A stretch of 20,357 bases of DNA. It comes from a virus. Position numbers and translations under genes: made by a program. The notes under the pieces are model-generated. The model made no database searches. It was not told the origin of the DNA and saw only the letters and a list, made by a program, of their open reading frames with translations. This document shows positions 7,471-18,903 of the stretch, one piece after another; within the stretch, counting starts at the first letter, position 1, and every line of letters begins with the position of its first letter. The stretch lies in IMG/VR virus record IMGVR_UViG_3300046010_012265, positions 1 to 20,357 of that record. One strand, written 5' to 3'.

Positions 7471-7498
7471 CAAATGTACGTATATACATTTGGTTTCC
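7471..7498 (-). promoter_or_regulatory. Recurring promoter, copy 1
   Basis: GGAAACCAAA, then 13 bases from AACC to TACATTTG (7471-7478). This copy has the full Bacteroidota TAnnTTTG box. The start codon follows only five bases after the box. Confidence 0.65.
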
Positions 7499-7753
7499 AA
7501 AAAGATCCGTATAAAAGAAAGGATTGCGGGTCTAGAAATGTTTGTCGAAAGGGGTATAAATGATTTTGCGGATGGCGGATATTCGTATATACGCGCGCCT
7601 TGGGTAAAGATCGTGGTCTTGCTGTGAATACGGGGAATTCCGCGCCATATATGCGCCGCGTCGATGGACCGCTATTGCCGTGGGCCCGTTGCGCCGTCGC
7701 TACGCTATCGCTCCGCTATCGTTTATTTTCATTTTCTTTTTTTTGTCATAATG
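7499..7753. other. Gene-free stretch with GC-rich island
   Basis: No convincing gene on either strand. From 7561 to 7720 the GC content is about 57 percent by hand count, against roughly one third around it. It contains the palindrome CGTATATACG (7584-7593), an inverted GCGC pair around CATATAT (near 7640-7656), and a direct repeat CGCTATCG at 7703-7710 and 7714-7721. Could be a structured RNA, a binding region or a piece of foreign DNA; the sequence does not decide. Confidence 0.5.
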
Positions 7754-7783
7754 CAAAAATAATGGCGAGTGGGGGCTCGCCAT
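7754..7783 (-). terminator. Intrinsic terminator
   Basis: Perfect 8-bp stem ATGGCGAG (7762-7769) / CTCGCCAT (7776-7783) with a six-base loop, followed on the minus strand by TATTTTTG. It lies 10 bases beyond the stop codon of the 93-aa zinc-finger-like gene. Confidence 0.75.
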
Positions 7784-7792
7784 ATCCTTTAT

Positions 7793-8074
7793 TTAATAAC
7801 CAAATCTAATACACCAAACCATGTCAGCATACTCCTCTATCGATTTATCACTATATTGTCCTATTTGCTCTGCTTGAGCATATGCTATTATGCAATGTGG
7901 ACATCCAGCATGTTTAACTTCCATTATACGTACCCAATTACTGCTTAACATTGGTCGTCCACATAATGTTCTGTATGTACCATCACCTGATTTGGCAATG
8001 TGTGCTGTGTTGCTCCATACATCACCTTTGCCTCCAAATAGATAATAACCACTGTTTAATTTGTTCTGATTCAT
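7793..8074 (-). CDS. Small zinc-finger-like protein
   Basis: 93 residues. Potential zinc ligands are His25, Cys38 (TLCGR) and the pair Cys58/Cys61 (GCPHC), in the spacing H-x12-C-x19-C-x2-C, a pattern shared by small phage and actinobacterial proteins that read H...TLCG...CxxC. The remainder is helical. Probably a metal-stabilised fold for nucleic-acid or protein binding; no enzyme motif. It is monocistronic, with its own promoter copy and a strong terminator. Confidence 0.65.
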   Translation of the reverse strand: MNQNKLNSGYYLFGGKGDVWSNTAHIAKSGDGTYRTLCGRPMLSSNWVRIMEVKHAGCPHCIIAYAQAEQIGQYSDKSIEEYADMVWCIRFGY

Positions 8075-8093
8075 ATGTTTTAATTTTATAACA

Positions 8094-8121
8094 TAAATGT
8101 ACGACGCGGGATTGGGTTACC
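8094..8121 (-). promoter_or_regulatory. Recurring promoter, copy 2
   Basis: GGGTAACCCAAT, 13 bases, TACATTTA (8094-8101), then TTATAAAA. The -35 box is the loop of the hairpin at 8102-8129. Confidence 0.65.
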
Positions 8122-8129
8122 CCGCGTCG
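8102..8129 (-). repeat. Inverted repeat enclosing a -35 box
   Basis: Perfect 9-bp arms CGACGCGGG (8102-8110) and CCCGCGTCG (8121-8129) around a 10-base loop that is the promoter -35 box. An A8 run on the plus strand (8131-8138) adjoins it, so a U-tract follows the hairpin only for plus-strand transcripts; on the minus strand it precedes it. Confidence 0.7.
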
Positions 8130-8139
8130 CAAAAAAAAC

Positions 8140-8541
8140 TTAATTAGCTTCTGTTGTAGGTTCAATTAATATTGTTTCCTCAAATACCTCAATTACTTCA
8201 TTGATCGCTTCATCTACTTCATCTATCAGGGTATCCACATTGAAATTAATATCATCCAATTCAACTCGATTATCATAAGCGATACTGAATTCAGCTGAAT
8301 CAAAGTCAATTACATCGCTGTTACTCATTCGGTCTAGTTTCCTATAGATTGCATCGTGTAACTTGGATCTTAAATCATCCAAATCGACGTTTGGTTTTTG
8401 ATGTAACTCTACTATGTCGTTTATTTCAGTGTCCAAATCGGATACTAACTCATACAATAGATTGGTAACATCGTCTTTACTGTAGATACTTGGGTAAGAA
8501 CCCTTAACGCGTTGTATTGCGTTTTCAATTGATTTAATCAT
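8140..8541 (-). CDS. Acidic hypothetical protein, 133 aa
   Basis: Not recognised. Very acidic (repeated D/E with VDTLIDEVDEAINEVIEVFE near the C-terminus) and mostly helical, with two segments of alternating leucine and charge suggestive of coiled-coil pairing. Such highly acidic small proteins are frequent in phage early regions and often bind host proteins or mimic DNA; here that is speculation. Own promoter copy upstream; stop codon lies just before the A8/T8 tract and hairpin. Confidence 0.6.
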   Translation of the reverse strand: MIKSIENAIQRVKGSYPSIYSKDDVTNLLYELVSDLDTEINDIVELHQKPNVDLDDLRSKLHDAIYRKLDRMSNSDVIDFDSAEFSIAYDNRVELDDINFNVDTLIDEVDEAINEVIEVFEETILIEPTTEAN

Positions 8542-8560
8542 ATTTTTTAATTTTATAACA

Positions 8561-8588
8561 TAAATGTACGAATCGAAACTGGGTTACC
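8561..8588 (-). promoter_or_regulatory. Recurring promoter, copy 3
   Basis: GGTAACCCAG, 13 bases, TACATTTA (8561-8568), then TTATAAAA. The 24 bases 8548-8571 are identical to 8081-8104 of copy 2. Confidence 0.65.
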
Positions 8589-8607
8589 AAATGGTAACCC
8601 TTGTTTC
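8575..8607 (-). terminator. Hairpin overlapping promoter copy 3
   Basis: GGGTTACC (8581-8588) / GGTAACCC (8593-8600) with an AAAT loop, extended by GAAAC/GTTTC (8575-8579, 8603-8607). It follows the stop codon of the 65-aa gene by seven bases and contains the -35 box of the next gene. No clean U-tract, so it may be an operator as well as, or rather than, a terminator. Confidence 0.5.
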
Positions 8608-8613
8608 TTAAAA

Positions 8614-8811
8614 TTAAAAGTATGAACCTCGTTTAGTATTGTTATCACTCCATTGTTTCATTATCTCAACTGCTCTCATTATACCCGTTTTGTCCACATG
8701 TAGACGGGATACATTTAGCTGTTTAAACCATTCTTGAAACTCCGGTGTCGCTGTTGTCTCGTTTCGTTCTTGTTCGATTTCATTCAATCGTTCAATTGTA
8801 ATTGTAATCAT
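8614..8811 (-). CDS. Hypothetical 65-aa protein
   Basis: Not recognised. Starts MITITIERLNEIEQER, similar in its first residues to the 95-aa gene at 12307-12594, then two short helices (EFQEWFKQLNV, IMRAVEIMKQW). Start supported by AAAGGTTATG and by promoter copy 4 at 8831-8860. Monocistronic. Confidence 0.6.
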   Translation of the reverse strand: MITITIERLNEIEQERNETTATPEFQEWFKQLNVSRLHVDKTGIMRAVEIMKQWSDNNTKRGSYF

Positions 8812-8830
8812 AACCTTTAATTTTATATTA

Positions 8831-8860
8831 TAAATGTAAGATGGGAAATTATGTTTCCCA
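8831..8860 (-). promoter_or_regulatory. Recurring promoter, copy 4, with hairpin
   Basis: GGGAAACATAAT then TACATTTA (8831-8838) with 13 bases between. TGGGAAA (8842-8848) and TTTCCCA (8854-8860) form a 7-bp stem directly before TCTTACATTT, so the same bases could end the upstream transcript and start the next. Confidence 0.6.
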
Positions 8861-8864
8861 CCTT

Positions 8865-9128
8865 TTAAGATAATCCTATATTTGATATACCTAATTTAGA
8901 TAACATATGAGCAACATCATCATCTGTTGCTTCATCATCATCAGATTGGTGTTTATCTTCATACACCATTGCTTTAATTATTGATACTTTAAATAACTCC
9001 ATCATCGTTTCATTTTGATTTAATACTGAAGCGATTAATGTACTTAGGTCATTACCTGTGCCTTCAACTTGTACTTGGATACCACCGTTTACTTGTTCAA
9101 TACGAACGATTGTTTTTTCTTGATTCAT
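8865..9128 (-). CDS. Hypothetical 87-aa acidic protein
   Basis: Not recognised. An N-terminal beta hairpin pattern (TIVRIEQVNGGIQVQVEG), a helical middle (DLSTLIASVLNQNETMMELF) and an acidic tail (DKHQSDDDEATDDDVAHM). No motif. Monocistronic with promoter copy 5. Confidence 0.6.
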   Translation of the reverse strand: MNQEKTIVRIEQVNGGIQVQVEGTGNDLSTLIASVLNQNETMMELFKVSIIKAMVYEDKHQSDDDEATDDDVAHMLSKLGISNIGLS

Positions 9129-9147
9129 AATTTTAAATTTTATAACA

Positions 9148-9174
9148 TAAATGTACGTTAAATAATTACGTTTC
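9148..9174 (-). promoter_or_regulatory. Recurring promoter, copy 5
   Basis: GAAACGTAAT, 13 bases, TACATTTA (9148-9155), then TTATAAAA. The -35 half is less G-rich than in other copies. Confidence 0.5.
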
Positions 9175-9201
9175 TAATTTTAAATTTAATTATATTAACA
9201 T

Positions 9202-9338
9202 TTGGGAAACCCAACTCCACTTCGTAATGTTATGTTATCGATTTGGATAGGCGCCTAATGAAACGGGTGAAGAGATCAGAGGTAGGCTGCTTAGGACGTC
9301 TCGCCCCGCCACCCCAAAATGAAATTGGTCTAAAGATA
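9202..9338 (-). ncRNA. Candidate small non-coding RNA
   Basis: A promoter copy (9331-9359) points into a stretch with no minus-strand ORF longer than a few codons. The stretch is unusually G/C-rich at 9250-9320 and can form GGGGCG-AGA-CGTCCT plus a GCCTA/TAGGC pairing on the minus strand. It ends at TTGGG-TTT-CCCAA (9202-9214) followed by an A/T-rich tract, a weak terminator. Expected RNA length about 120 nucleotides. No known RNA family was recognised; boundaries are estimates. Confidence 0.4.
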
Positions 9339-9359
9339 TGAACATGAATTGGGTTCCCC
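9331..9359 (-). promoter_or_regulatory. Recurring promoter, copy 6, before non-coding stretch
   Basis: GGGGAACCCAAT, 13 bases, TATCTTTA (9331-9338). The same -10 variant TATCTTTA occurs in copy 18. No gene follows within 200 bases. Confidence 0.55.
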
Positions 9360-9392
9360 AAATTTATTCCTTAATAAACCCCACTTAGCTCA

Positions 9393-9420
9393 TAAAGGTA
9401 CGATTCATTTTTTGGGTTCC
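9393..9420 (-). promoter_or_regulatory. Recurring promoter, copy 7, orphan tandem copy
   Basis: GGGAACCCAA, 14 bases, TACCTTTA (9393-9400). It lies 62 bases upstream of copy 6 and has no ORF of its own. Confidence 0.5.
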
Positions 9421-9430
9421 CAAATGAAGA

Positions 9431-9467
9431 AAGAAATGCACCGACACGATTTGTGTCAGTGCTTTCT
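9431..9467 (-). terminator. Intrinsic terminator, possibly bidirectional
   Basis: Stem GCACcGACAC (9438-9447) / GTGTCaGTGC (9453-9462) with one mismatch and a five-base loop, followed on the minus strand by ATTTCTTTCTTC. It lies 23 bases beyond the stop of the AT-hook-like gene. Confidence 0.7.
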
Positions 9468-9485
9468 AAATGCGTTGTGCTTTAA

Positions 9486-9728
9486 TTATGCTTCGGTCTG
9501 TACCTTCTTAGGGCGACCACGCTTCACAACTTCACCATTAGCAATTCGTGCTTCAAACGATGCTAATCGTTGCTGACGAGCACTTGTTTCATTTACTTTT
9601 CTGCCGCGTTTAATTGTTAAACCTTCGGCTTGCAACTTAGCATACATTGCTAATTTTTGCTGACGTGCACTGTTTGCGTTTACTTTTCTACCGCGTTGTG
9701 CTTTTGTTTCGTTTAATACTTCTGACAT
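9486..9728 (-). CDS. AT-hook-like basic protein with internal duplication
   Basis: 80 residues, strongly basic. RGRKVN occurs at 12-17 and 41-46, each followed by two variable residues and SARQQ(K/R)LA, so residues 12-25 and 41-54 are a tandem duplication; a third basic core RGRPKK is at 70-75. RGR(P/K) cores are the minor-groove-binding part of AT-hooks, so it probably binds AT-rich DNA, perhaps as a nucleoid-like or transcription-modulating protein. Function is inferred from the motif. Its leader is long (about 46 bases from the -10 box) compared with about 20 elsewhere, and ends CAAGGTTATG. It adjoins the large ACGT-rich non-coding stretch. Confidence 0.7.
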   Translation of the reverse strand: MSEVLNETKAQRGRKVNANSARQQKLAMYAKLQAEGLTIKRGRKVNETSARQQRLASFEARIANGEVVKRGRPKKVQTEA

Positions 9729-9774
9729 AACCTTGATTTTTATTTGTTTTTAATTATTAACTAAATTAACACTG

Positions 9775-9803
9775 TAAATATACGCTGGGTAAGTTGGGTT
9801 TCC
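9775..9803 (-). promoter_or_regulatory. Recurring promoter, copy 8
   Basis: GGAAACCCAA, 14 bases, TATATTTA (9775-9782). Drives the AT-hook-like gene. Confidence 0.6.
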
Positions 9804-10395
9804 AACTTTACTTTGTTTTAATTTTAAATACGATACATAATGTAATACAAAAAAAACTACGTTACAAAAAAAAAATTTATTTGGAGAACACAACATTGTT
9901 ACGTACAAAAAAAACAATACATAACGTTTCATATATACATTGTAACAAAAAAACAAAACGTAATGTCGATGAATGTATGTTCGTCACAACACACCCCCAT
10001 TACACCCATTATTTCATTTTGTTCCACATACCATAGCATATCCAAATATACTTACATCATGATATGTTTATGTTTTGATATACTTATATGCTGTTTTGTA
10101 CACGTTGTTATCGAACGCGTGCGTTAATTATACGTAAAATTCGCAAGTACTTCGCGTAAATCTCAATTGTCTATTTGCAATCGACAACGTACGTGAACAC
10201 GAAATTTTTGGCGGTATCTACGTTATATTCAACGTAGCGTTCGTTACGTATTGTTTCCTATTTATTGTTTCCCAGCACGTTCCGACATATGGTCGTTACC
10301 CGTTCTCATCGCCGCCCGTATCGCCGATCAACGTTCGACGACATAATGTTACCCACGTTACGGTACCCACGTTACGGTATACCGTTATGTTACAC
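9804..10395. other. Gene-free ACGT-rich stretch with A-tracts and repeats
   Basis: No credible gene on either strand. ACGT occurs about 16 times between 9855 and 10410, roughly eight times expectation. Four A-tracts of 7-10 bases (9849-9856, 9866-9875, 9907-9914, 9947-9953) each follow TAC or AAC. Further elements are an inverted repeat CTACGTT/AACGTAG (10218-10237) and a 14-bp tandem repeat (10352-10379). It could be a replication origin, a packaging or binding region; nothing proves any of these. Confidence 0.55.
10352..10379. repeat. Two tandem 14-bp repeats
   Basis: CCCACGTTACGGTA occurs twice head to tail (10352-10365 and 10366-10379), followed by TACCGTTATGTTAC, which partly inverts the unit. 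Iteron-like in layout, though only two copies are present. Confidence 0.8.
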
Positions 10396-10428
10396 AAAAA
10401 AAAAAACGTCGCGACAAAAAACGCGACG
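10396..10428 (-). terminator. Strong intrinsic terminator T2
   Basis: CGTCGCG (10407-10413) pairs with CGCGACG (10422-10428); on the minus strand the hairpin is followed by eleven T residues (10396-10406). Overlaps T1. Confidence 0.85.
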
Positions 10429-10448
10429 ACAAAATTATCTGTCGTCGC
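10416..10448 (-). terminator. Intrinsic terminator T1, overlapping T2
   Basis: GCGACGACA (10423-10431) pairs with TGTCGTCGC (10440-10448), followed on the minus strand by GTTTTTT. The lower arm is shared with T2, so the two hairpins exclude each other. It follows the 82-aa gene. Confidence 0.85.
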
Positions 10449-10473
10449 ACTGTCACCCATACACCCTTATCTA

Positions 10474-10722
10474 TTATTCCGTTTCGTCGCTGGAATCATT
10501 ATTATCATTCTCATACAATCGCTTATACGTTTCATCTCGCTCGACAATAATTTCAATATCGTACTCGTCATTTATCTTAATACCAACTGCGTTTAGTCCC
10601 GTTTTAGTTATTTCGTCTATAACTTGTTTTAGCGACGTTTTGAAGTGAAAACCACCGACGCATTCTGTCCAAGCGCCGTCTCGCCAAAAGATATTGTCTT
10701 GTTGTTCTGTTATATGTTCCAT
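10474..10722 (-). CDS. Hypothetical 82-aa protein
   Basis: Not recognised. Alternating pattern NAVGIKINDEYDIEIIVERD suggests beta strands after a helix (SLKQVIDEITK); the tail is acidic (NDNNDSSDETE). No copy of the recurring promoter lies upstream; instead a palindrome CGTATATACG is at 10745-10754 and the leader ends AATAGCAAAATG. Two overlapping terminators close the unit. Confidence 0.6.
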   Translation of the reverse strand: MEHITEQQDNIFWRDGAWTECVGGFHFKTSLKQVIDEITKTGLNAVGIKINDEYDIEIIVERDETYKRLYENDNNDSSDETE

Positions 10723-10744
10723 TTTGCTATTTTAATGAATAAAT

Positions 10745-10754
10745 CGTATATACG
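10745..10754. repeat. Palindrome CGTATATACG
   Basis: Self-complementary decamer upstream of the 82-aa gene; exact copies also at 6589-6598 and 7584-7593, with a near copy at 7479-7488. Three exact copies in 20 kb is well above chance. Confidence 0.6.
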
Positions 10755-10812
10755 TAGGTATGTATGATGTGTGAGTACTGCAAGCTTTCGCTTTAATTTT
10801 TTGTAGCTATTT

Positions 10813-11091
10813 TTAGTTACATGATTTTTCAATTGCGAGTATATACCCCCAAACATAATCGGGAATCGTATCCATCAAATTGTTGTCATCATAATAATCA
10901 ACCAAATGTTTGATATTTTCTTTAGCTTGTGTGTTGTCTTTCATTAGTGAAACAATAAATTTAGATAGGTCATTTAGTGTTTTACGCATTTCATTAGCAG
11001 ACTTATCATCACCATTGTTTTCTAATTCATCACATGTGTCATATAATGAAATTAGTTTGACAAATGCTTCGTCAATTTTTTGTTTATTCAT
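10813..11091 (-). CDS. Hypothetical 92-aa helical protein
   Basis: Not recognised. Helical with polar turns (LYDTCDELENNGDDKSANEM, then TLNDLSKFIVSLMKD). Third gene of a three-gene unit from promoter copy 9; 22 bases after the upstream stop, leader ends CAAGGTTATG. Confidence 0.6.
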   Translation of the reverse strand: MNKQKIDEAFVKLISLYDTCDELENNGDDKSANEMRKTLNDLSKFIVSLMKDNTQAKENIKHLVDYYDDNNLMDTIPDYVWGYILAIEKSCN

Positions 11092-11113
11092 AACCTTGAT
11101 TTGTATTGTTGTT

Positions 11114-11317
11114 TTATTTAATTAGTGCTTTAGCCATATTATCTGAGCCACATTTTATTCCGGCGTGAAACATGATTAGGATATCTAACGTATTTTTCAA
11201 CTCAAATTTAATTGTATCTTGTTCTTTATTATACTCGGATACAGTAACTCTGTCTTCACCTAAATGTTCTACGATGTAAGAAACTCTGTCCTTACTCATA
11301 ATTAATTCTACTATCAT
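11114..11317 (-). CDS. Hypothetical 67-aa protein, paralogue of the 79-aa gene at 13451
   Basis: Its C-terminus FHAGIKCGSDNMAKALIK matches FHAGIELGSESMAKALINK of the 79-aa protein, and both have a preceding strand segment, so they are paralogues. The family is not recognised. An alternative start, MSKDRV, lies at 11299. Middle gene of a three-gene unit. Confidence 0.6.
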   Translation of the reverse strand: MIVELIMSKDRVSYIVEHLGEDRVTVSEYNKEQDTIKFELKNTLDILIMFHAGIKCGSDNMAKALIK

Positions 11318-11335
11318 AGTTTTTATTTTTATACA

Positions 11336-11536
11336 TTAGATAACCCATTCCATTTGTTCAACTTCGTTTGATATAACTTGCAGTGCATCCGCAGGGTATG
11401 TCAATATTAGTTGCTTTAACATTTGTTCCTCCATACACACTTTCTCTAGTATGTGTTGCATTGTCTCACCATCAACCTCTATTTCATTTAGCAATGAAAT
11501 GATTGTTTCCACTTTGGGATTTTGAATTGGTAACAT
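11336..11536 (-). CDS. Hypothetical 66-aa protein
   Basis: Not recognised. Entirely helical by pattern (TIISLLNEIEVDGETMQHIL, then LKQLILTYPADALQVI), acidic. First gene of the unit that continues with the FHAGI and 92-aa genes; gap 18 bases. Confidence 0.6.
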   Translation of the reverse strand: MLPIQNPKVETIISLLNEIEVDGETMQHILEKVCMEEQMLKQLILTYPADALQVISNEVEQMEWVI

Positions 11537-11555
11537 ATTGTTTATTTTTATAACA

Positions 11556-11584
11556 TAAATGTAAAAAGGGGAACTATGTTCCCC
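11556..11584 (-). promoter_or_regulatory. Recurring promoter, copy 9, fused with terminator
   Basis: GGGGAAC (11568-11574) and GTTCCCC (11578-11584) form a perfect 7-bp hairpin followed on the minus strand by TTTTTACATTTA, a good terminator whose U-tract runs into the -10 box (11556-11563). The -35 element GGAACATAG is the 5' arm and loop. It ends the 129-aa gene and starts the next unit. Confidence 0.75.
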
Positions 11585-11591
11585 TCATTTC

Positions 11592-11981
11592 CTATCCGTA
11601 AATCACATCGTTGTATATCACTGTTTGTATAATACAATCTGCTGTTGTTGCGTCATCGCGTTCATTAATCGCATCCATTAGATGTCTGATTGGTGTGTTT
11701 TGTACTCGCTCGTGTACTAACTCTAATGTAATTGGGTGACGTTCATCATCATTTTGATCTACAATCCATATTGTTTTTCCGTTTCGTAACATTTCCATCA
11801 AAATGTCTTCATAACATAGCCCTGCACTGCTGTCTTTGAATATTAGACTTGTTTTGGCTTGACTATAATCGTCATCGCTAAAATCGATTTCTAAATCGTA
11901 ATAGCCTAATTCACCTAAACCGTTGCAGATTGCGTCGTAGAATAGATTTTCTGATTCTTCATGTGTTAAATTAACTGTCAT
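11592..11981 (-). CDS. Hypothetical 129-aa acidic protein
   Basis: Not recognised. Alternates helices and strands (YYDLEIDFSDDDYSQAKTSL, KTIWIVDQNDDERH), acidic overall, no membrane segment. Monocistronic, closed by the terminator-promoter hairpin at 11568-11584. Confidence 0.6.
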   Translation of the reverse strand: MTVNLTHEESENLFYDAICNGLGELGYYDLEIDFSDDDYSQAKTSLIFKDSSAGLCYEDILMEMLRNGKTIWIVDQNDDERHPITLELVHERVQNTPIRHLMDAINERDDATTADCIIQTVIYNDVIYG

Positions 11982-12002
11982 AACTTTTATTTATTTATAA
12001 TG

Positions 12003-12030
12003 TAAATGTAAGATAAGAATTGGGTTTACC
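12003..12030 (-). promoter_or_regulatory. Recurring promoter, copy 10
   Basis: GGGTAAACCCAAT, 12 bases, TACATTTA (12003-12010), then TATAAATA. The TAA inside the -35 box is the stop codon of the upstream 72-aa gene (12026-12028). Confidence 0.6.
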
Positions 12031-12244
12031 CAACTACCGTTACATTATCATTCTTATATATAACAAAGCTGCTAGCGAATTCTTTAGCAGTAAAAGTTAT
12101 TTCATGTTCAGCACACCAACCCGATATACCCTTAATAGTAATCTCGTTTTCATCTATAGCATATAATTCAACAACATCACCTTGTAGGCACATTACGTTG
12201 CAGTCGTCTGCTATGCCTTTAATGCATTTTAACACTTTGTTCAT
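12026..12244 (-). CDS. Hypothetical 72-aa beta-rich protein
   Basis: Not recognised. Strand-rich (GDVVELYAIDENEITIKGI, then HEITFTAKEF) with Cys at 7, 15, 19 and 44; an SH3- or OB-like small barrel is possible. Stop codon lies inside promoter copy 10. Leader ends CAAGGTTATG. Confidence 0.6.
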   Translation of the reverse strand: MNKVLKCIKGIADDCNVMCLQGDVVELYAIDENEITIKGISGWCAEHEITFTAKEFASSFVIYKNDNVTVVG

Positions 12245-12264
12245 AACCTTGATTTTTATTTCAG

Positions 12265-12293
12265 TAAATGTAAGAAGGGAGACTGTGTCTCCC
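12265..12293 (-). promoter_or_regulatory. Recurring promoter, copy 11, fused with hairpin
   Basis: GGGAGAC/GTCTCCC (12277-12283, 12287-12293) precedes TTCTTACATTTA (-10 12265-12272). The -35 variant is GGGAGACACAG. A 30-bp block including this module (12265-12294) is repeated exactly at 12616-12645. Confidence 0.6.
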
Positions 12294-12306
12294 TCTTATT
12301 TATTAT

Positions 12307-12594: not shown

Positions 12595-12615
12595 AACCTT
12601 TATTTTTTGTTTATA

Positions 12616-12644
12616 TAAATGTAAGAAGGGAGACTGTGTCTCCC
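12616..12644 (-). promoter_or_regulatory. Recurring promoter, copy 12, fused with hairpin
   Basis: Same module as copy 11: hairpin GGGAGAC/GTCTCCC (12628-12634, 12638-12644) and TACATTTA (12616-12623). The hairpin ends the 128-aa gene. Confidence 0.65.
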
Positions 12645-12652
12645 TTTTCTAA

Positions 12653-13446: not shown

Positions 13447-13450
13447 ATTG

Positions 13451-13921: not shown

Positions 13922-13923
13922 AA

Positions 13924-14115
13924 CTATTGGTATTCAGGTTCGTCTGTTTGTTCTTTTAAGTCAACAAATAAATCAGCATTTTCAGCTAAGTACTTAATTA
14001 ACCTAATTCGGTAGCGTTCGTCGCGATCATTACCTGCTTCTTCTGTGATATTGTTTACACAATCTAACAAATCGTGATAGGTGTTTTCAAACCTACAGTA
14101 ACTCATATTTGCCAT
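13924..14115 (-). CDS. MSYCRFENT-family small phage protein
   Basis: 63 residues beginning MANMSYCRFENTYHDLLDCV, a start I recognise from small hypothetical proteins of many unrelated phages. No biochemical role is known to me. The rest is helical and charged. First gene of a two-gene unit from promoter copy 15. Confidence 0.7.
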   Translation of the reverse strand: MANMSYCRFENTYHDLLDCVNNITEEAGNDRDERYRIRLIKYLAENADLFVDLKEQTDEPEYQ

Positions 14116-14134
14116 AACCTTTTATTTTATAATG

Positions 14135-14161
14135 TGAATGTATGATTGTAAATTGGGTTAC
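14135..14161 (-). promoter_or_regulatory. Recurring promoter, copy 15
   Basis: GTAACCCAAT, 13 bases, TACATTCA (14135-14142), then TTATAAAA. TAA of the -35 box (14158-14160) is the stop codon of the 65-aa gene. Confidence 0.6.
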
Positions 14162-14355
14162 TCAAAATAACAAATAACTTGTTCCCATTTACCATTGGCT
14201 CTTGTTTCAACAACATAATCTCCATCATATTGTCTATGTTCTGGTTGTGTTAACCATATTTTATGGTCGCCATTGTCAATTTTTAATTCACTACCATCCC
14301 ACGCTTGTTCAATTGTTTCAAGCGCTTGTAATTCATGTTTTGTATATTTTGCCAT
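14158..14355 (-). CDS. Hypothetical 65-aa protein
   Basis: Not recognised. Helical start (KYTKHELQALETIEQAW) then strands (ELKIDNGDHKIWLTQP, GDYVVETRANGKW). Monocistronic; leader ends AAAGGTTATG. Confidence 0.6.
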   Translation of the reverse strand: MAKYTKHELQALETIEQAWDGSELKIDNGDHKIWLTQPEHRQYDGDYVVETRANGKWEQVICYFE

Positions 14356-14371
14356 AACCTTTTTATTTTTA

Positions 14372-14398
14372 TAAAATTACAATCTAAGATTCGGTTTC
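14372..14398 (-). promoter_or_regulatory. Recurring promoter, copy 16
   Basis: GAAACCGAAT, 13 bases, TAATTTTA (14372-14379), then TATAAAA. The -35 half lies inside the coding end of the 63-aa gene. Confidence 0.5.
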
Positions 14399-14575
14399 TG
14401 AAGTGTTAACTGTAAACTTAGGTGGTTTAGATAATTCTTCTTTATCTGCTGGTTTTGGAGTGTTTTGATTTTTTTCCATTTCAAGAAAATATGTCTTGTG
14501 TTCTCTTAAAAAATCAAGAAATACTCGTTCGTCATGATTCTCAAAAAAGCTATAAATTTGTTCTACTGCTGTCAT
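14384..14575 (-). CDS. Hypothetical 63-aa protein
   Basis: Not recognised. Helical first half (AVEQIYSFFENHDERVFLDF) and a polar, proline-containing second half (NTPKPADKEELSKPPK) that is probably disordered. Last gene of the five-gene unit from promoter copy 17; its final codons overlap promoter copy 16. Confidence 0.55.
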   Translation of the reverse strand: MTAVEQIYSFFENHDERVFLDFLREHKTYFLEMEKNQNTPKPADKEELSKPPKFTVNTSETES

Positions 14576-14576
14576 G

Positions 14577-14750
14577 TTATTTTATTTCGTTTGATGATAC
14601 AATAGTAATATTTTTAGCGTTAAGACGTTTAAGTGCATCCGTTACTTGATTTGATGCTTCAATACTAGTGTTTGCTTTAATTTCTACTTCACCACGACGT
14701 TTTCCATTATCGTCTACTACAAATATTACTTTAAATTTTTTCATACCCAT
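14577..14750 (-). CDS. Hypothetical 57-aa protein
   Basis: Read from the gap. Starts MGMKKFKVIFVVDDNGKRRG and ends with KNITIVSSNEIK: a beta-alpha-beta pattern with helix EASNQVTDALKRL. The shape suggests a tiny ferredoxin-like or dsRBD-like fold, but no family is recognised. A second ATG is at 14744. The stop is one base from the next start. Confidence 0.6.
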   Translation of the reverse strand: MGMKKFKVIFVVDDNGKRRGEVEIKANTSIEASNQVTDALKRLNAKNITIVSSNEIK

Positions 14751-14761
14751 AAATATTTTAA

Positions 14762-14992
14762 CTACATTAAAAGCAATGTTTCATAAGGTATCCAATTAAA
14801 GTGTGTTGAATCAGTAGGCATTGATATCATACATTGTCCACCTACATTCCCAATTGCATCAAATCCAAATCCTTCACATATGATGTTTACATATGAGTTT
14901 GGTTCTAGTTGTTTAAATTCTTCAAGTATATCAAAGTCCCAAGGAAATTCAGGGTCATTTAGTTCAGCCCATTGTTTGCTGTAGTCTGCCAT
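14762..14992 (-). CDS. Hypothetical 76-aa protein
   Basis: Not recognised. Aromatic, acidic N-terminus (YSKQWAELNDPEFPWDFDIL) and a strand-rich, glycine-containing C-terminus (EGFGFDAIGNVGGQCMIS). The leader is 20/21 identical to that of the 75-aa gene upstream. Confidence 0.6.
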   Translation of the reverse strand: MADYSKQWAELNDPEFPWDFDILEEFKQLEPNSYVNIICEGFGFDAIGNVGGQCMISMPTDSTHFNWIPYETLLLM

Positions 14993-15010
14993 ATTAAATG
15001 TATTGTTTTG

Positions 15011-15238
15011 TTATGGTAGTTGATTTTCAACTTTGTCGATAATCATCTTTGCTGCTTTAGTGAATGATTCTTGAGTAAACGATTCATCGCCTGTTTGTTC
15101 TAAACAATTAAATGCTTGTTCGTTTTGTTTAGAACAATCCATATACAAGAAAAAACTCATCAAGTCGATAATACTATTAAATTCTGTTACTTGTTCTTTA
15201 GCGTATTTGTAAAGAAAATGTTCATATGCTGTTGTCAT
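15011..15238 (-). CDS. Hypothetical 75-aa protein
   Basis: Not recognised. Helical (AYEHFLYKYAKEQVTEFNSI, DLMSFFLYMDC). The ATG lies one base after the upstream stop codon (TAATATG). Second gene of the unit from copy 17. Confidence 0.6.
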   Translation of the reverse strand: MTTAYEHFLYKYAKEQVTEFNSIIDLMSFFLYMDCSKQNEQAFNCLEQTGDESFTQESFTKAAKMIIDKVENQLP

Positions 15239-15239
15239 A

Positions 15240-15770
15240 TTAGATGTATTGTTTTGATAATTTAATTAATTCATCATACAATGTTGGGTGTAATGCTGGT
15301 GTTATTTCATCATTGTCTTCATCACAAACATGCCATTCATAAATAAAACAATCATCAAATGATTCATTATGTGTTACAGTGTATGATTCATCCATGTAAT
15401 CAATAGTTAATGCAGTTACTTTGTATACTTCTTTATTTACTACTTTCATTTTATCGTCTTCAACTTTTGTATCTGATTCAAGAATTGCTTGTAATTCAAG
15501 CAAAGCTAATTCAGTAACTACTCTGTTTTTACCACCAATGTGCCACTCAATTGTTTCATCATCAAGTAACGGTCTATATTCTTTCCAATCATATACAGTA
15601 AAAACATCACCATTACTTGTTTCCATTACCCACTCATAGTTAACCTTATCTTCACCATAATTTTCTTCAAATTCAGGTTCGCCTAAATGTATTTTTAACT
15701 TATTTACAGTTGTGTTAATAACTGTATGGTGGAACGATGTTCCAACTGATGATTGTCTTGTTTGTTTCAT
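15240..15770 (-). CDS. YDWKEYR/WHIGG-family phage protein
   Basis: 176 residues. Residues about 22-95 form a recognisable block: LKIHLGEPEF, VNYEWVMETSNGDVFTVYDW, EYR at 64-66 and WHIGG at 76-80, a pattern I know from hypothetical proteins of many phages (LG-EP, yEW, tvYDWKEYR, WHIGG). The rest, residues 105-176, is a second unrecognised domain with strands (YKVTALTIDYMDESYTVTH). No function is established. First gene of a five-gene unit. Confidence 0.65.
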   Translation of the reverse strand: MKQTRQSSVGTSFHHTVINTTVNKLKIHLGEPEFEENYGEDKVNYEWVMETSNGDVFTVYDWKEYRPLLDDETIEWHIGGKNRVVTELALLELQAILESDTKVEDDKMKVVNKEVYKVTALTIDYMDESYTVTHNESFDDCFIYEWHVCDEDNDEITPALHPTLYDELIKLSKQYI

Positions 15771-15791
15771 AACCTTTATTTTTTATTTATA

Positions 15792-15818
15792 TAAATATAC
15801 GACAATATTTTAGGTTTC
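15792..15818 (-). promoter_or_regulatory. Recurring promoter, copy 17
   Basis: GAAACCTAAA, 13 bases, TATATTTA (15792-15799), then TATAAATA. Drives the five-gene unit down to 14384. Confidence 0.6.
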
Positions 15819-15827
15819 TAATACAAG

Positions 15828-16103
15828 TTATTTTTTAGTTGGTGCATTAAAATTATCTTTCAACCAATCTAAGTAAGCTCTAACTTGTAAAGCGGCAATT
15901 GATTGTCTGTATTGAGGTGTCTTTGTAAATTCATACCATAAATCATCCCAGTCGCTTACTTGAATCTCTCTTTCAATTATTCTTCTTTCTATACCATATC
16001 CTTCCATTTCATTGTACTGAGTTTCAGTGCAATCACCCCAATCAGATTCAAGTGTTGAATGGTCACTGAAACAGTATTGGTATACTTTTTCTACTTTATT
16101 CAT
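15828..16103 (-). CDS. Hypothetical 91-aa protein
   Basis: Starts MNKVEKVYQYCFSDHSTLES. A longer frame reaches 16163, but its first 20 codons overlap the upstream gene and read as low-complexity HLQLKNQILNLHL, so ATG 16103, ten bases after the upstream stop, is preferred. Acidic with many aromatic residues (SDWDDLWYEFTKTPQYRQ). Not recognised. Confidence 0.6.
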   Translation of the reverse strand: MNKVEKVYQYCFSDHSTLESDWGDCTETQYNEMEGYGIERRIIEREIQVSDWDDLWYEFTKTPQYRQSIAALQVRAYLDWLKDNFNAPTKK

Positions 16104-16113
16104 TAAATGTAAA

Positions 16114-16380
16114 TTAAGAATTTGGTTCTTCAACTGCAGATGTAGAAGTTGGCTTTGTACCAACTCCTAATCCTTCATATTTCAGTAGTGCATTTGCACA
16201 GTAGTATTGTAACTTTTGAAGTGACTTCATATTAGTAATTTCTTGAATCATTTTGTTTTTATCTGATTCTTTGATTTTACTTTCATTCAAATGTGCAAGT
16301 GCAATGTTTTGAGCTGATGTTAAGTCTTTAGATGTAAAAACTGCTTCTGCAATTTTGTCTAGTGTTGAAATAATCTTCAT
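16114..16380 (-). CDS. Hypothetical 88-aa helical protein
   Basis: Not recognised. Helical repeats of leucine/alanine (DKIAEAVFTSKDLTSAQNIA, LQKLQYYCANALLKYEG) and a Ser/Thr/Pro tail. First of two genes from promoter copy 18. Confidence 0.6.
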   Translation of the reverse strand: MKIISTLDKIAEAVFTSKDLTSAQNIALAHLNESKIKESDKNKMIQEITNMKSLQKLQYYCANALLKYEGLGVGTKPTSTSAVEEPNS

Positions 16381-16399
16381 AACTTTTAATTTTGTGGAC

Positions 16400-16427
16400 T
16401 AAAGATACGAATGATTATTTGGTTTCC
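16400..16427 (-). promoter_or_regulatory. Recurring promoter, copy 18
   Basis: GGAAACCAAAT, 13 bases, TATCTTTA (16400-16407). Starts five bases before the stop of the 52-aa membrane gene. Confidence 0.6.
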
Positions 16428-16431
16428 AAAC

Positions 16432-16590
16432 TTAGTCTGAATATCTGTTATCTAAATCAACAACATTATTACTCCACCATTGCCTAAATTTATTTGTTTT
16501 TGGTTTGTCTTCTAAGTAATCTGTTACTTTAACAATAGTATACATTGTAGCAACAAATACTATTAACGCAATTGCAATTGATATCATCAT
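16432..16590 (-). CDS. Small single-pass membrane protein, 52 aa
   Basis: Read from the gap. Starts MMISIAIALIVFVATMYTIV, a membrane segment, then a basic/aromatic tail (KPKTNKFRQWWSNN). Overlaps the upstream gene at ATGATG/TGA; ATG at 16587 is possible too. Last of a run of membrane genes. Confidence 0.6.
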   Translation of the reverse strand: MMISIAIALIVFVATMYTIVKVTDYLEDKPKTNKFRQWWSNNVVDLDNRYSD

Positions 16591-16883
16591 TTGTTATTGT
16601 TTATTGCAACATAACTGTATAACCCTGTTATGCAGTATATTGCTTGTGATATAATAAGTACTTTATAAAACACATCTACATTACGTGAACCAAAAATATG
16701 GTACGTCCCAACAATATATAGTAGTGAAAATACAAATGAACCTAAACCCAATAGTATAACTCTACCTTGAAATTTTTCTGTATTGTTTGTATTCCATAAT
16801 AATTTAACTATACCCATTGTAGCGAATATATAGAAAAATACAATACCCGCACTAGTAAATAGTGATTTAAGATTGCTGTTCAT
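16587..16883 (-). CDS. Three-pass membrane protein, 98 aa
   Basis: Hydrophobic segments at about 12-30 (AGIVFFYIFATMGIVKLLW), 40-64 (ILLGLGSFVFSLLYIVGTY) and 71-94 (VLIISQAIYCITGLYSYVAI). No family recognised; size and topology suit a phage superinfection-exclusion or holin-like role, but no lysis gene is adjacent. Confidence 0.55.
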   Translation of the reverse strand: MNSNLKSLFTSAGIVFFYIFATMGIVKLLWNTNNTEKFQGRVILLGLGSFVFSLLYIVGTYHIFGSRNVDVFYKVLIISQAIYCITGLYSYVAINNNK

Positions 16884-17088
16884 TCTGTTCTAAGTTGATA
16901 TCTAAACTATCAATCAGTCCTTTATCTTCTAATTTTTTAATTACAATCATTGTTGTAACTGAAGATAGTATTTGGTTTGTAGTAACATGCTTTAGTGTAC
17001 TTTCTAATTTGTACAACTTGTACATACAGATAAGAAAACCAATGATACTAAGCATATTATATGCTTCCTGTAGGCTGATTTGTGCCAT
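16867..17088 (-). CDS. Membrane protein with cytoplasmic helix, 73 aa
   Basis: A longer frame reaches 17133, but MAQISLQEAYNML (ATG 17088) is preceded by AAAATCAAAGCA and reduces overlap with the upstream gene to 32 bases. One membrane segment (YNMLSIIGFLICMYKLYKL) and a charged helix. Overlaps the downstream gene by 17 bases. Not recognised. Confidence 0.55.
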   Translation of the reverse strand: MAQISLQEAYNMLSIIGFLICMYKLYKLESTLKHVTTNQILSSVTTMIVIKKLEDKGLIDSLDINLEQNEQQS

Positions 17089-17248
17089 TGCTTTGATTTT
17101 TAGTGTAAATGATTTGTTCCCATTCAATGTCATTCAATGTAGTATTTTGTTCTACTTCAATCCAAGTAGGAACAATATACTTCTTTCCATCAAGGGTACT
17201 TGTAAACAAAGCGGGCGGTAAACTGCTTTTATGCTTGTATTTTTTCAT
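17057..17248 (-). CDS. Hypothetical 63-aa protein
   Basis: Not recognised. Basic N-terminus, then GKKYIVPTWIEVEQNTTLND and an aromatic strand (EWEQIIYTK). Polar tail rich in Asn/Gln/Ser. First of four overlapping genes from promoter copy 19. Confidence 0.55.
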   Translation of the reverse strand: MKKYKHKSSLPPALFTSTLDGKKYIVPTWIEVEQNTTLNDIEWEQIIYTKNQSNGTNQPTGSI

Positions 17249-17262
17249 AACCTTTATTTCAA

Positions 17263-17290
17263 TAAATGTACAACTAGAAAATTTGGTTAC
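17263..17290 (-). promoter_or_regulatory. Recurring promoter, copy 19
   Basis: GTAACCAAAT, 14 bases, TACATTTA (17263-17270). Directly abuts the TAG stop codon of the 81-aa gene. Confidence 0.6.
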
Positions 17291-17536
17291 CTAGTAGTCT
17301 TCATCTTCATCACTATACCAATCATCAAAGCTTTGTTCTTTAGATGATAGGATATACTCAGCTTCGCTTACTAAATCGTAAACAACGCTTTCGTTTTCGT
17401 CTTCAACACATTTGTCAACTAAATCTTCTATATCATTAACACCCATTTCATCCATAGCTGTTTCTAAAATAGTAAGCCAAGCTTCATCATTTAATAAGCT
17501 GTCGTGTAATTCAAATAATTGATCGTAAATGTTCAT
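17291..17536 (-). CDS. Hypothetical 81-aa very acidic protein
   Basis: Not recognised. Almost no basic residues; helical with many D/E (DEMGVNDIEDLVDKCVEDEN) and an acidic tail (SFDDWYSDEDEDY). 31 bases after the metallopeptidase gene. Confidence 0.6.
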   Translation of the reverse strand: MNIYDQLFELHDSLLNDEAWLTILETAMDEMGVNDIEDLVDKCVEDENESVVYDLVSEAEYILSSKEQSFDDWYSDEDEDY

Positions 17537-17567
17537 TGTTAAATTAATTTTTTAATAAATATCATTA

Positions 17568-18017
17568 CTATTCTAAAACCCACTTACACTCATCAAATGC
17601 TCTTTCTGTATTAGCTCGAGCAAATTTTTCTGCTTGTATTTCATATGGGTTTTTCCAATATCCATATTTGTAATGATATTCAAAGTACTTATTTACATCT
17701 TGGGTATAGTGATTAAACTCATGTAACACTGATATTGTTAGACATCTTATAGTTTTATTCTTTTTAAGATGTATTGTCATTAAGTTATCATCCCATGTCC
17801 AATCTGCTAATCCTACAAAATGTTTAGTGTTGCGTCTTAAAATGTGAATATTTGGTTTACGTTTTGGTGCCTTATATCTGTATACTTTGAATCTAATCTT
17901 CTTATGATACGGAGTGTGGTATTCCTTGTGTGCTAATTTAAGTACTTCCTTAATATAAGCAACTAACACATTACGCTTTATGTTTCGCGTACGAGTATAT
18001 AAAGATATATTGCTCAT
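17568..18017 (-). CDS. Putative zinc metallopeptidase (HExxH)
   Basis: 149 residues. VLHEFNHYTQ carries the HExxH motif (His99, Glu100, His103), and NPYEIQAEKFAR (123-134) supplies the likely third ligand or conserved Glu, in the arrangement HExxH-x19-NPxExxA found in phage and SprT-/IrrE-like zincins. The N-terminal half is basic with a strand pattern (KIRFKVYRYKAP). Substrate unknown; a host regulatory protein is a reasonable guess but unproven. Cytoplasmic; no signal peptide. Confidence 0.7.
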   Translation of the reverse strand: MSNISLYTRTRNIKRNVLVAYIKEVLKLAHKEYHTPYHKKIRFKVYRYKAPKRKPNIHILRRNTKHFVGLADWTWDDNLMTIHLKKNKTIRCLTISVLHEFNHYTQDVNKYFEYHYKYGYWKNPYEIQAEKFARANTERAFDECKWVLE

Positions 18018-18036
18018 GGTTGTATAATTTCGTATC

Positions 18037-18067
18037 TAAATATACACCCACATATTCACCTTTCCAA
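18037..18067 (-). promoter_or_regulatory. Candidate promoter, TTGG-N19-TATATTTA class
   Basis: TTGG (18064-18067), 19 bases, TATATTTA (18037-18044), with the same upstream decamer AAAACTTGGA as at 6505-6535. Before the metallopeptidase gene. Confidence 0.4.
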
Positions 18068-18073
18068 GTTTTA

Positions 18074-18283
18074 TTAATTTTCTTTTTTATGTTTTTTCCA
18101 TTCAACCCAGAACGCTAACATTACTATGATGTTCATACCACATGATGCTAGTATTTCATATATATCTTCGTAAATATTAATGGTTAAATGGACGTGACCC
18201 ACTACCCAAAATGGTACTGCTAAATTGCTACCAACCCATACTATAAAGAATGTAATGAACTGTTTTATATCTATTAATTTTAG
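18074..18283 (-). CDS. Small membrane protein ORF without an ATG start
   Basis: The frame reads KQFITFFIVWVGSNLAVPFW, then HLTINIYEDIYEILASCG, then NIIVMLAFWVEWKKHKKEN: two membrane segments and a basic end. Composition makes it convincing as coding, but no ATG, GTG or TTG occurs before the first segment; the frame opens after TAG at 18286-18284, so an ATA start (18274) or a lost start must be assumed. End coordinate is the maximum extent. Confidence 0.4.
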   Translation of the reverse strand, partial: LKLIDIKQFITFFIVWVGSNLAVPFWVVGHVHLTINIYEDIYEILASCGMNIIVMLAFWVEWKKHKKEN

Positions 18284-18429
18284 CTATGTCCTAACAGTAA
18301 TGCGTAGTATTGTTCTTTTTCCTCTTCCTGTCTTAACCACTCTTCATACACGTAATCTGCATCAATTGTATCTGGTTGTAATTCAACTCTTACATTTGTG
18401 TTTACTAGTGCTTCTTTAATTTTGCTCAT
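18280..18429 (-). CDS. Hypothetical 49-aa protein
   Basis: Read from the gap. Starts MSKIKEALVNTNVRVELQPD, ends EEEKEQYYALLLGHS. Acidic, helical tail with an aromatic end. Overlaps the upstream 41-aa gene by 14 bases. Not recognised. Confidence 0.6.
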   Translation of the reverse strand: MSKIKEALVNTNVRVELQPDTIDADYVYEEWLRQEEEKEQYYALLLGHS

Positions 18430-18541
18430 ATACTAAGTATTTACCACGTTCAGTTTCCCCTACACGTGTTGGTGTTTTAATTTTAAATTGTGGGTCGCCG
18501 TTAGATATTAATGCTACGGTTTGCATCATGATAATTATCAT
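18416..18541 (-). CDS. Hypothetical 41-aa protein
   Basis: Read from the gap. Starts MIIIMMQTVALISNGDPQFK, ends KYLVYEQN. Starts one base after the stop of the MazG-like gene. An internal start at MQTVAL is possible. Not recognised. Confidence 0.5.
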   Translation of the reverse strand: MIIIMMQTVALISNGDPQFKIKTPTRVGETERGKYLVYEQN

Positions 18542-18542
18542 G

Positions 18543-18857
18543 TTATTGATTTTGTTTTCTAAGCATAAATGCATGGAATGAAGCAACGAATATGTCTGCG
18601 CTTAAATTTACACCTTTAAAATTTAATTCACTTATCCACTCATCCATTAATTGCTTTACGTCTTCAGCTTTAACGATTGAATGCTCTACTTTAAGTTTCT
18701 CTGAGTATAAGTAAGCGTCGTGTAATTCATCTTGTAAATGTTGAATCCACTCTCCTACTGTTAAATCTTTACGATCCAAATCAGTATTGTATTTTTTATT
18801 ACCCATTTCTGCTCTTGACTTAAATCGATCTACGATTCGTGTTACTATGCTGTCCAT
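18543..18857 (-). CDS. MazG-like / dATP-dGTP pyrophosphohydrolase-type protein
   Basis: 104 residues. RFKSRAEMGNKKYNTDLDRK (11-30), then W37, H40 and DELHDAYLY (43-51), follow the pattern R..G.KKYgt.L...W..H..DEL.DA.Y of the N-terminal domain of phage dATP/dGTP pyrophosphohydrolases (PF18909-like), relatives of MazG. Such enzymes remove nucleoside triphosphates that interfere with phage DNA synthesis. The short length means only that domain is present, so activity is not certain. First gene of a four-gene unit. Confidence 0.65.
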   Translation of the reverse strand: MDSIVTRIVDRFKSRAEMGNKKYNTDLDRKDLTVGEWIQHLQDELHDAYLYSEKLKVEHSIVKAEDVKQLMDEWISELNFKGVNLSADIFVASFHAFMLRKQNQ

Positions 18858-18875
18858 ATTTTGTTTTTATTTGTA

Positions 18876-18903
18876 TGAAGATAAGAATAGGGATTTGGTT
18901 TCC
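18876..18903 (-). promoter_or_regulatory. Recurring promoter, copy 20, inside hairpin
   Basis: GGAAACCAAAT, 13 bases, TATCTTCA (18876-18883). The -35 box lies in an inverted repeat at 18887-18914 (TTTGG/CCAAA core, ATAGGG/CCCTAT outer pairs) that follows the SPFH gene. Confidence 0.6.

Follow-up and report, generated by a model that had tools for sequence, protein, structure and literature searches.

The stretch analyzed here, hereafter the window, is a virus contig of 20,357 bases from IMG/VR (record IMGVR_UViG_3300046010_012265) in which every called gene lies on the minus strand; a second contig, of 46,259 bases, carries DNA identical to it. The left part of the window encodes baseplate proteins (PHROG baseplate wedge families; Pfam GPW_gp25) and a predicted sigma factor. 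Beyond it, small open reading frames (ORFs) occupy the region between a T5orf172 gene and an SPFH gene, and throughout this region a bipartite, promoter-like element is repeated. This array of putative promoters is the subject of the present study. Each copy runs from an upstream box to a downstream box, called here the -33 and -7 boxes after their distance from the inferred transcription start. In the list below, 'box at' gives the first base of the -7 box, bits are scores against a matrix built from relatives, z and p values come from a folding test of the 45 bases upstream of the box, and L numbers are our labels for loci of relatives.

5254..6051, minus strand: predicted phage sigma factor, sigma-70 region 2 (Pfam Sigma70_r2, 8.9e-06, 25.9 bits against a cut-off of 24)
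6998-7489, minus strand: T5orf172 gene (gene call and family match)
between the T5orf172 and SPFH genes, minus strand: small ORFs, 35 by our choice (ORF calls)
18937-19860, minus strand: SPFH protein (gene call and family match)
7471..7501, minus strand: putative promoter, -33 box to -7 box (TACATTTG), box at 7478, before the T5orf172 gene; 5.3 bits
8094..8124, minus strand: putative promoter (GGGGTAACCCAAT..TCG TACATTTA), box at 8101, within a strong hairpin; z -4.5; 5.2 bits
8561..8591, minus strand: putative promoter (TTTGGTAACCCAG..TCG TACATTTA), box at 8568, hairpin overlapping; z -6.1; 12.3 bits
8831..8861, minus strand: putative promoter (GTGGGAAACATAAT..TCT TACATTTA), box at 8838, nested hairpin; z -3.1; 16.0 bits
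9148..9178, minus strand: weak putative promoter copy (TTAGAAACGTAAT..ACG TACATTTA), box at 9155; -2.8 bits
9331..9361, minus strand: putative promoter (TTGGGGAACCCAAT..TCA TATCTTTA), box at 9338, ahead of a conserved noncoding stretch; top matrix match, 25.5 bits
9393..9423, minus strand: putative promoter (TTGGGAACCCAAA..TCG TACCTTTA), box at 9400, no called ORF behind; 24.3 bits
9775..9805, minus strand: putative promoter (TTGGAAACCCAACT..GCG TATATTTA), box at 9782, ATG 54 bases on; z -3.7; 24.7 bits; block alignable to L007 and L009/L012
11556..11586, minus strand: putative promoter (GAGGGGAACATAGTTCCCCTTTT TACATTTA), box at 11563, nested terminator-like hairpin and T run; p 0.04; 17.1 bits
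12003..12033, minus strand: putative promoter (TTGGGTAAACCCAATT..TCT TACATTTA), box at 12010, TAA of the upstream gene inside the box; 18.4 bits
12265..12295, minus strand: putative promoter, box at 12272, nested hairpin GGGAGAC-ACA-GTCTCCC; z -3.5; 14.6 bits
12616..12646, minus strand: putative promoter, box at 12623, nested hairpin GGGAGAC-ACA-GTCTCCC; z -2.9; 14.6 bits
13061..13091, minus strand: putative promoter (AGAGTAACCAAAT..TCA TACATTTA), box at 13068, TAA of the upstream gene inside the box; 15.1 bits
13710..13740, minus strand: putative promoter (TTGGGTAACCCAATTTTTGAGTA TACATTTA), box at 13717, TAA of the upstream gene inside the box; 17.7 bits
14135..14165, minus strand: putative promoter (TTGAGTAACCCAAT..TCA TACATTCA), box at 14142, TAA of the upstream gene inside the box; 5.9 bits
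15792..15822, minus strand: weak putative promoter copy (TTAGAAACCTAAA..TCG TATATTTA), box at 15799; 0.5 bits
16400..16430, minus strand: putative promoter (TTTGGAAACCAAAT..TCG TATCTTTA), box at 16407; 16.7 bits
17263..17293, minus strand: putative promoter (TAGGTAACCAAAT..TTG TACATTTA), box at 17270, its first three bases being the TAG of the upstream gene; 22.0 bits
18876..18906, minus strand: putative promoter (TTTGGGAAACCAAAT..TCT TATCTTCA), box at 18883, within a strong hairpin; z -4.5; 18.3 bits
18037..18067, minus strand: extra candidate promoter outside the counted copies (TTGGAAAGG..GTG TATATTTA), ATG at 18017, 27 bases on; 14.1 bits

We counted 19 copies of the element, all on the minus strand and spanning 7471-18906, where an earlier note on this DNA had reported twenty. 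They were chosen by eye for their closeness to TACATTTA and TATCTT[TC]A, which makes the letters of the -7 box partly a matter of construction. The pattern [AG]AC[CA]-N12-14-TA[CT][AC]TTT[AG] was found 18 times on the minus strand of 6901-18960 and never on the plus strand, with 0.335 matches expected per strand and at most 3 in 200 first-order resamplings. Sixteen of these matches belong to the 19 copies; the other two lie at 16127, directly abutting an ATG, and at 10068. A matrix was trained on 122 T[T/A]GG-selected sites from relatives (L006-L083) after removal of exact copies of the window. It gave 15 minus-strand matches of at least 12 bits and none on the plus strand, for 0.04 per shuffled strand. 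All but one, the extra candidate with its box at 18044, are among the 19, and five copies fall below this threshold (14142, 7478, 8101, 15799 and 9155, at 5.9, 5.3, 5.2, 0.5 and -2.8 bits). Neither pattern nor matrix had a match in the structural block (1-6900). The confinement to the accessory region proposed in the earlier note, and a density far above that of shuffled or resampled sequence, were thus both recovered. A site at 14379 (AACC-N13-TAATTTTA), with a matrix score of -8, was left uncounted and taken as chance, and 16111 was likewise rejected as chance after the matrix scan.

Letter positions are numbered below from the first base of the -7 box, unless given from the inferred start. 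Among the 19 copies, C at -15 and A at -12 are each present in 18 and C at -2 in 16, while G occupies -21, -20 and -19 in 14, 15 and 17, respectively. When the -33 letters were examined for TTTG, T was found at -23 in 12 copies, T at -22 in 13 and G at -21 in 14, the relatives being TTTGG-like. The exact spacing of 13 bases after AACC fits most copies, although AACC followed by 14 bases and the variants AACA, GACA and AACG also occur. An ATG stands 22-29 bases past the first base of the box in 15 of the 19; of the exceptions, 9782 has its ATG at 54 bases and 7478 at about 13, and no ORF is called behind 9338 and 9400. From this geometry we infer promoter function. By our ORF picks, nine of the putative promoters would serve a single gene and the others none to six before the next promoter.

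Bacteroidota sigma-A promoters carry TTTG at -33 and TAnnTTTG at -7 (PMC6847099, PMC2483708 and PMC7366714; these papers and those cited below are drawn on for parts of their text). Their -7 element extends from -12 to -5, with the start 4-5 bases on, and the array geometry fits this arrangement (PMC6847099). Counted from the inferred start, T-12, A-11, T-8 and T-7 are present in all 19 copies and T-6 in 17, with no G at -10 or -9. The proposed Bacteroidota-like character of the downstream half thus stands, in letters that are partly fixed by selection; the array further shares an A-rich leader with this class and appears to resemble it in having T[T/A]G at the -33 place.

The upstream half had been held not to be the host TTTG. 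Its profile was taken from all TA[CT][AC]TTT[AG] boxes 10-45 bases before ORF starts in the fetched loci, 372 in number when unique, with the -7 box as the only anchor. The relatives are metagenome contigs with some overlap between them (L009 and L012 apparently come from a single phage); sites are unique by sequence and not by genome. A contig identical to the window is included here, in the sigma sets, in the long-box test and among the records of the 14-phage and eight-phage counts below. The profile showed T, T, G and G at -23 to -20 with frequencies of.69,.57,.60 and.57. Judged by these letters, the upstream half is TTGG at the host -33 position, and AACC(C/A)AA is its downstream edge, which often serves as second arm in a short dyad. 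The earlier claim is not supported on this point.

The spacing between the two halves is strict. T[T/A]GG starts exactly at -23 in 129 of 133 sites of relatives, which were pre-selected for T[T/A]GG nearby. Without pre-selection, in loci fetched by the window sigma (sigma set), it stands at -23 in 124 of 466 A-ending boxes and 0-8 times at each of twelve neighbouring offsets, while G-ending boxes show it in 2 of 88 and TTTG at -24 in 5 of 88. The SPFH set, not selected for that sigma, has it in 46 of 294 A-ending and 55 of 210 G-ending boxes. For comparison with host-type DNA, 80 GroEL-fetched loci were taken, of which 15 non-Bacteroidota or doubtful ones were removed by hand and 31 for a GC content of at least 40%, leaving 34 loci (613,569 bases, 567 ORF-called genes). 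In these 34 low-GC Bacteroidota chromosome pieces no T[T/A]GG peak at -23 was seen (1 of 103 A-ending and 0 of 125 G-ending boxes). One base farther out, TTG rises weakly, to 12 of 125 G-ending boxes, in agreement with the genome-wide -33 motif reported as weak for F. johnsoniae (PMC6847099). TTTG four bases nearer was present in 11 of 103 A-ending boxes, mostly from one homologous coding stretch repeated between loci.

The class recurs in phages well beyond the window. T[T/A]GG-N19-TAYMTTTR has 143 matches in 14 phage records (one being the longer contig of the window) against 9 for the reversed pattern, 140 of them on the main strand of their record. The tighter TTG-N17-TC-N-TAYMTTTA has 68 against 0 in eight phage records (928,760 bases; the longer contig contributes 5), with 67 on the main strand. 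With G as its last base, this pattern is absent from the eight phage records and occurs 10 times, against 4 reversed, in ten host genomes. A longer universal box was tried and rejected: TWGGNNNACNNRRT-N9-TAYMTTTR matched in 5 of 11 records and in none of the other 6, immuto included, and 1 time against 2 reversed in the ten host-type genomes. As this long box fails, the features that look general are reduced to TWGG/TTG, the -7 box and the C at -2, the last of which reaches only 50% in group B. Group logos (the group names are our own, assigned without a tree) use sites pre-selected for T[T/A]GG, or GTTG in immuto, and for A as last box base; in these sites the upstream box is TTGGGnAACCnAAT in the window, near TAGGCTTACAAAAT in group B and GTTGC in immuto, while the -7 box is constant.

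Flavobacterium phage immuto, cultured on Flavobacterium sp. LMO8, carries its own form of the element, GTTG-N16-TTC-N-TATATTTA-GGTATCAATAATTAAAA, before short ORFs adjoining its homologue of the sigma gene. GTTG-N20-TAYMTTTA is found there 29 times on the plus strand and once on the minus strand, for 0.15 expected per strand. A stricter pattern has 27 plus-strand matches. The first 66.5 kb holds 10 of them and 66.5-77 kb another 16, so that 26 fall in 1-77 kb; a single one lies in the remaining 83 kb, which holds most structural genes. We read the array as a promoter class common to this phage lineage. No description of the motif in Flavobacterium or Bacteroides phages was found in the titles and abstract openings returned by searches of open-access papers, preprints aside.

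The strongest site, at 9338, has a noncoding stretch of about 100 bases behind it, and L007 and L009/L012 each carry a TTGG box at the same place. In these equivalent promoters TTGG and the distance are kept and the other letters drift, the -7 boxes being TAATTTTA in L007 and TACCTTTA in L009/L012. The stretch itself (9225-9338, minus strand) is homologous in these loci and partly in L028, and is followed by a TTGGG-TTT-CCCAA dyad. It is a candidate small RNA with no Rfam match; the Rfam search gave two matches, both far below the gathering score.

Several copies are associated with potential RNA hairpins. When the 45 upstream bases were folded, p ≤ 0.05 was reached by 8 of the 19 window sites (mean z -1.7), compared with 4 of 26 promoterless starts (mean z -0.2), and by 5 of the 19 immuto sites tested (mean z -1.0). 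In the sigma set, a GC-containing stem of at least 6 was present within -80..+40 at 20 of 126 sites, for 1.9 expected and a maximum of 5 in 50 shuffles that preserve base content only. Twelve of the 20 end 27-43 bases before the box, several with a following T run that reaches the -33 box, and the other eight end within the promoter. Terminator-like hairpins beside or within the promoters are thus real, and a minority. The most striking dyads of the window are GGGAGAC-ACA-GTCTCCC and TTGGGTAACCCAA, the latter covering -23 to -11 of the box and centred about -29 from the inferred start. In five copies it is the stop codon of the upstream gene that forms part of the box, TAA at 12010, 13068, 13717 and 14142 and TAG at 17270.

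These stems, none of which lies downstream of the -7 box in the sigma set, would fit an element that is chiefly an intercistronic terminator or a dyad acting as RNA hairpin or operator, its promoter likeness being secondary. We consider this very improbable. Of the 126 sites, 106 have no GC-containing stem of at least 6. Over 254 sites, stems of at least 5 within box and spacer are only mildly enriched (34 against 19.1 expected; of at least 7, 1 against 0.66), and the stretch farther upstream is richer (46 against 20.6). Group B and immuto keep the box without a dyad in their consensus, while the fixed spacing and the regular distance to the ATG are features of promoters. For the same reasons, namely only mildly nested stems in relatives, a consensus without dyad in group B and immuto, and most sites without a strong hairpin, the dyad was rejected as the defining feature.

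For transcription, its timing, the polymerase that reads the sites and its termination, we infer the following scheme. The window would belong to a T4-related phage whose host is probably one of the Bacteroidota, and its array would consist of separate promoters. Each would drive one to about six small non-structural genes, and one stands before the conserved noncoding stretch. Each is built from a -33 box, with T[T/A]GG in the window and relatives and GTTG in immuto, and a -7 box TAYMTTTA, whose first base follows the start of the -33 box by 23 bases and which usually has a C two bases ahead of it; an A-rich leader of roughly 10-20 bases leads on to the ATG. Tuned beyond the host average, these promoters would be read by sigma-A as sigma-70 reads T4 early promoters, and for the structural genes the phage would use its own sigma and late promoters. 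Where terminator-like hairpins lie within a promoter or just before it, as in a minority of cases, they would insulate neighbouring units. That host RNA polymerase with sigma-A reads the array as early promoters, as in T4, is the explanation we judge fairly probable. It is preferred because no host-type class with G at -5 stands out and the array class is the only candidate found for genes read first. In T4, too, many bipartite promoters stand before non-structural genes with a consensus richer than that of the host (compare PMC2988021), although sequence and host sigma differ.

Several observations weigh against this explanation. G is nearly invariant at -5 in promoters of F. johnsoniae (PMC6847099), whereas at this place, the end of the -7 box, 18 of the 19 window sites have A and one has G. 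Other departures from Bacteroidota sigma-A promoters are the strict -33 spacing, the extra G and the C at -14. Ten Flavobacteriales genomes (about 35.5 Mb, from rounded sizes) show no enrichment of TTG-N17-TC-N-TAYMTTTA, with 17 matches against 15 reversed. The upstream box differs between phage groups, and it is longer than the usual sigma contact. Looser immuto patterns retain 2 of 29 (GTTG) and 3 of 33 (TTG, TAYMTTTR) matches beyond 82 kb. The promoter in L007 equivalent to 9338 has the box TAATTTTA, and L028 shares only a 44-base core, in the 100 bases before which no promoter was seen. Finally, p in the folding test exceeds 0.05 for 11 of the 19 window sites and for 14 of the 19 tested in immuto. 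The likeness to host promoters is partial: it appears to hold for the place of T[T/A]G, and not for the base at -5, the C at -14, the spacing or the abundance in host-type genomes. As an observation apart, four of the 17 host matches are identical copies in one Algibacter genome (G020, the genome of L244; contigs C10, C22, C25 and C32), perhaps a mobile element.

Because the class departs from host promoters in A-5, C-14, strict spacing and lack of host-genome enrichment, the phage recognition factor first suggested is possible. One form would be middle-type promoters, in which a phage protein takes over from the host -33 contact by binding the 13-14 base box TTGGGnAACCnAAT centred near -29, and region 2 of the host sigma binds the -7 box, in the manner of MotA/AsiA. 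Box centre and distance match the T4 plan, where the phage-specific MotA box is centred at -30, 12±1 bases from a host-like -10 (PMC2988021); in the array the spacing is 12-13 bases. A box longer than TTTG, which varies between groups while the -7 box stays, and the absence of enrichment in host-type genomes would also be explained. On the other side, the array logo TTGGGnAACC is unrelated to the MotA box TGCTTtA (PMC2988021), and the MotA and AsiA families were each found in 0 of 12 relative records, most of them fragments but with immuto complete, while the T4 positive control was recovered at 3.2e-63 and 2.3e-43; unrelated proteins could take their place. Moreover, the TTG core and its position coincide with the host -33 element, and no other early promoter class was found. 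We regard middle-type promoters as rather unlikely.

A further candidate reader is the phage sigma itself (5254-6051). In its favour, the sigma set has almost only A at -5 where T[T/A]GG stands at -23, whereas the SPFH set has both A and G, and the predicted structure has a helical C-terminal part (residues about 173-260) beyond region 2 that could serve as region 4. The model is of moderate quality (mean predicted local distance difference test score, pLDDT, 70; predicted template modelling score, pTM, 0.40). In structure comparison its first row is T4 gp55, a late sigma (chain 7d7c_F; Z 10.7, 109 aligned residues, root mean square deviation, rmsd, 9.1), at a Z that can be background for helical models; many other sigma factors lie within 1-2 Z of it, and rows covering the whole length have an rmsd near 20. 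Foldseek gave no match at E 0.001 or better, sigma factors filling most of its top rows, and a search of PDB sequences with the sigma profile gave none. Kinship with gp55 is suggestive in this model; the protein is possibly a gp55-like late sigma and a candidate reader of another promoter class. As structural genes in both the window and immuto also nearly lack the array promoters, reading by this sigma appears improbable.

T4 late promoters, read with gp55, consist of a -10 element only, TATAAATA, and stand before structural genes. The array differs from them in being bipartite with fixed spacing, and in having no matrix match in the structural block. A TATTTATWA box lies at window 5237 (minus strand); TATTTATA is the reverse complement of the T4 late box. 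In immuto (MW353176.1), TATTTATWA boxes show an excess on the coding strand (27 versus 12, with 8.8 expected per strand) and lie before several genes, structural ones included. By region they number 13 versus 5 in 118.9-160 kb and also 7 versus 1 in the first 40 kb, and are thus not specific to structural genes; these boxes are possible late promoters.

Among known repeated elements, the start-associated sequence (SAS) of cluster K mycobacteriophages and its extended form (ESAS) offer another parallel, with 11-19 copies per genome before non-structural genes and inverted repeats at about half of them (PMC3203893). SAS is a 13-base GGGATAGGAGCCC, separated from the start codon by 3-7 bases, and has been suggested to act in translation initiation (PMC3203893). 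The array has a different sequence, stands farther from the ATG and has the geometry of promoters.

As to the phage itself, near-identity search of the phage collection with the window gave no match. The sigma protein matches six records of that collection, four of immuto (41% identity over 86%), one metagenome and one Microcystis; because these are mostly immuto, a Bacteroidota host is likely for the window phage, probably one resembling Flavobacterium. PHROGs were searched with 20 of the 35 array ORFs, 9 of which matched something at 0.01, the best at 1.6e-12 and 1.6e-10 and both of unknown function. Two noncoding regions stand out besides. At 7579-7736 lies a GC-rich element with blastn matches in 17 of the searched loci and a nearly invariant core around GCGGTCCATCGACG, which could be an RNA, an origin or a packaging element. 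The region 9900-10440 has few genes, and short blocks of it align to L007, L012 and L028.

If not read by unaided sigma-A, the array might represent an own recognition system of T4-related Bacteroidota phages, in which an unrecognised phage protein reads the group-specific 13-14 base -33 box and shifts sigma-A to a -7 box with A at -5. We judge this rather unlikely. If true, appropriation of sigma would have evolved outside the MotA/AsiA families, with a box that evolves with the phage group and a fixed -7 half, and in some units the same 30 bases would also hold the stop codon or terminator of the preceding gene. Bacteroidota are a major phylum in the gut and in water, and their sigma-A is unusual; to judge from searches of open-access papers, little has been published on how their phages take over transcription. 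The sharp phage-side consensus described here is present in a cultured pair, immuto on Flavobacterium sp. LMO8, and is therefore directly testable. It may help to tell non-structural from late genes in uncultured relatives by inspection of their DNA, and the array offers candidate promoters for Bacteroidota genetics.

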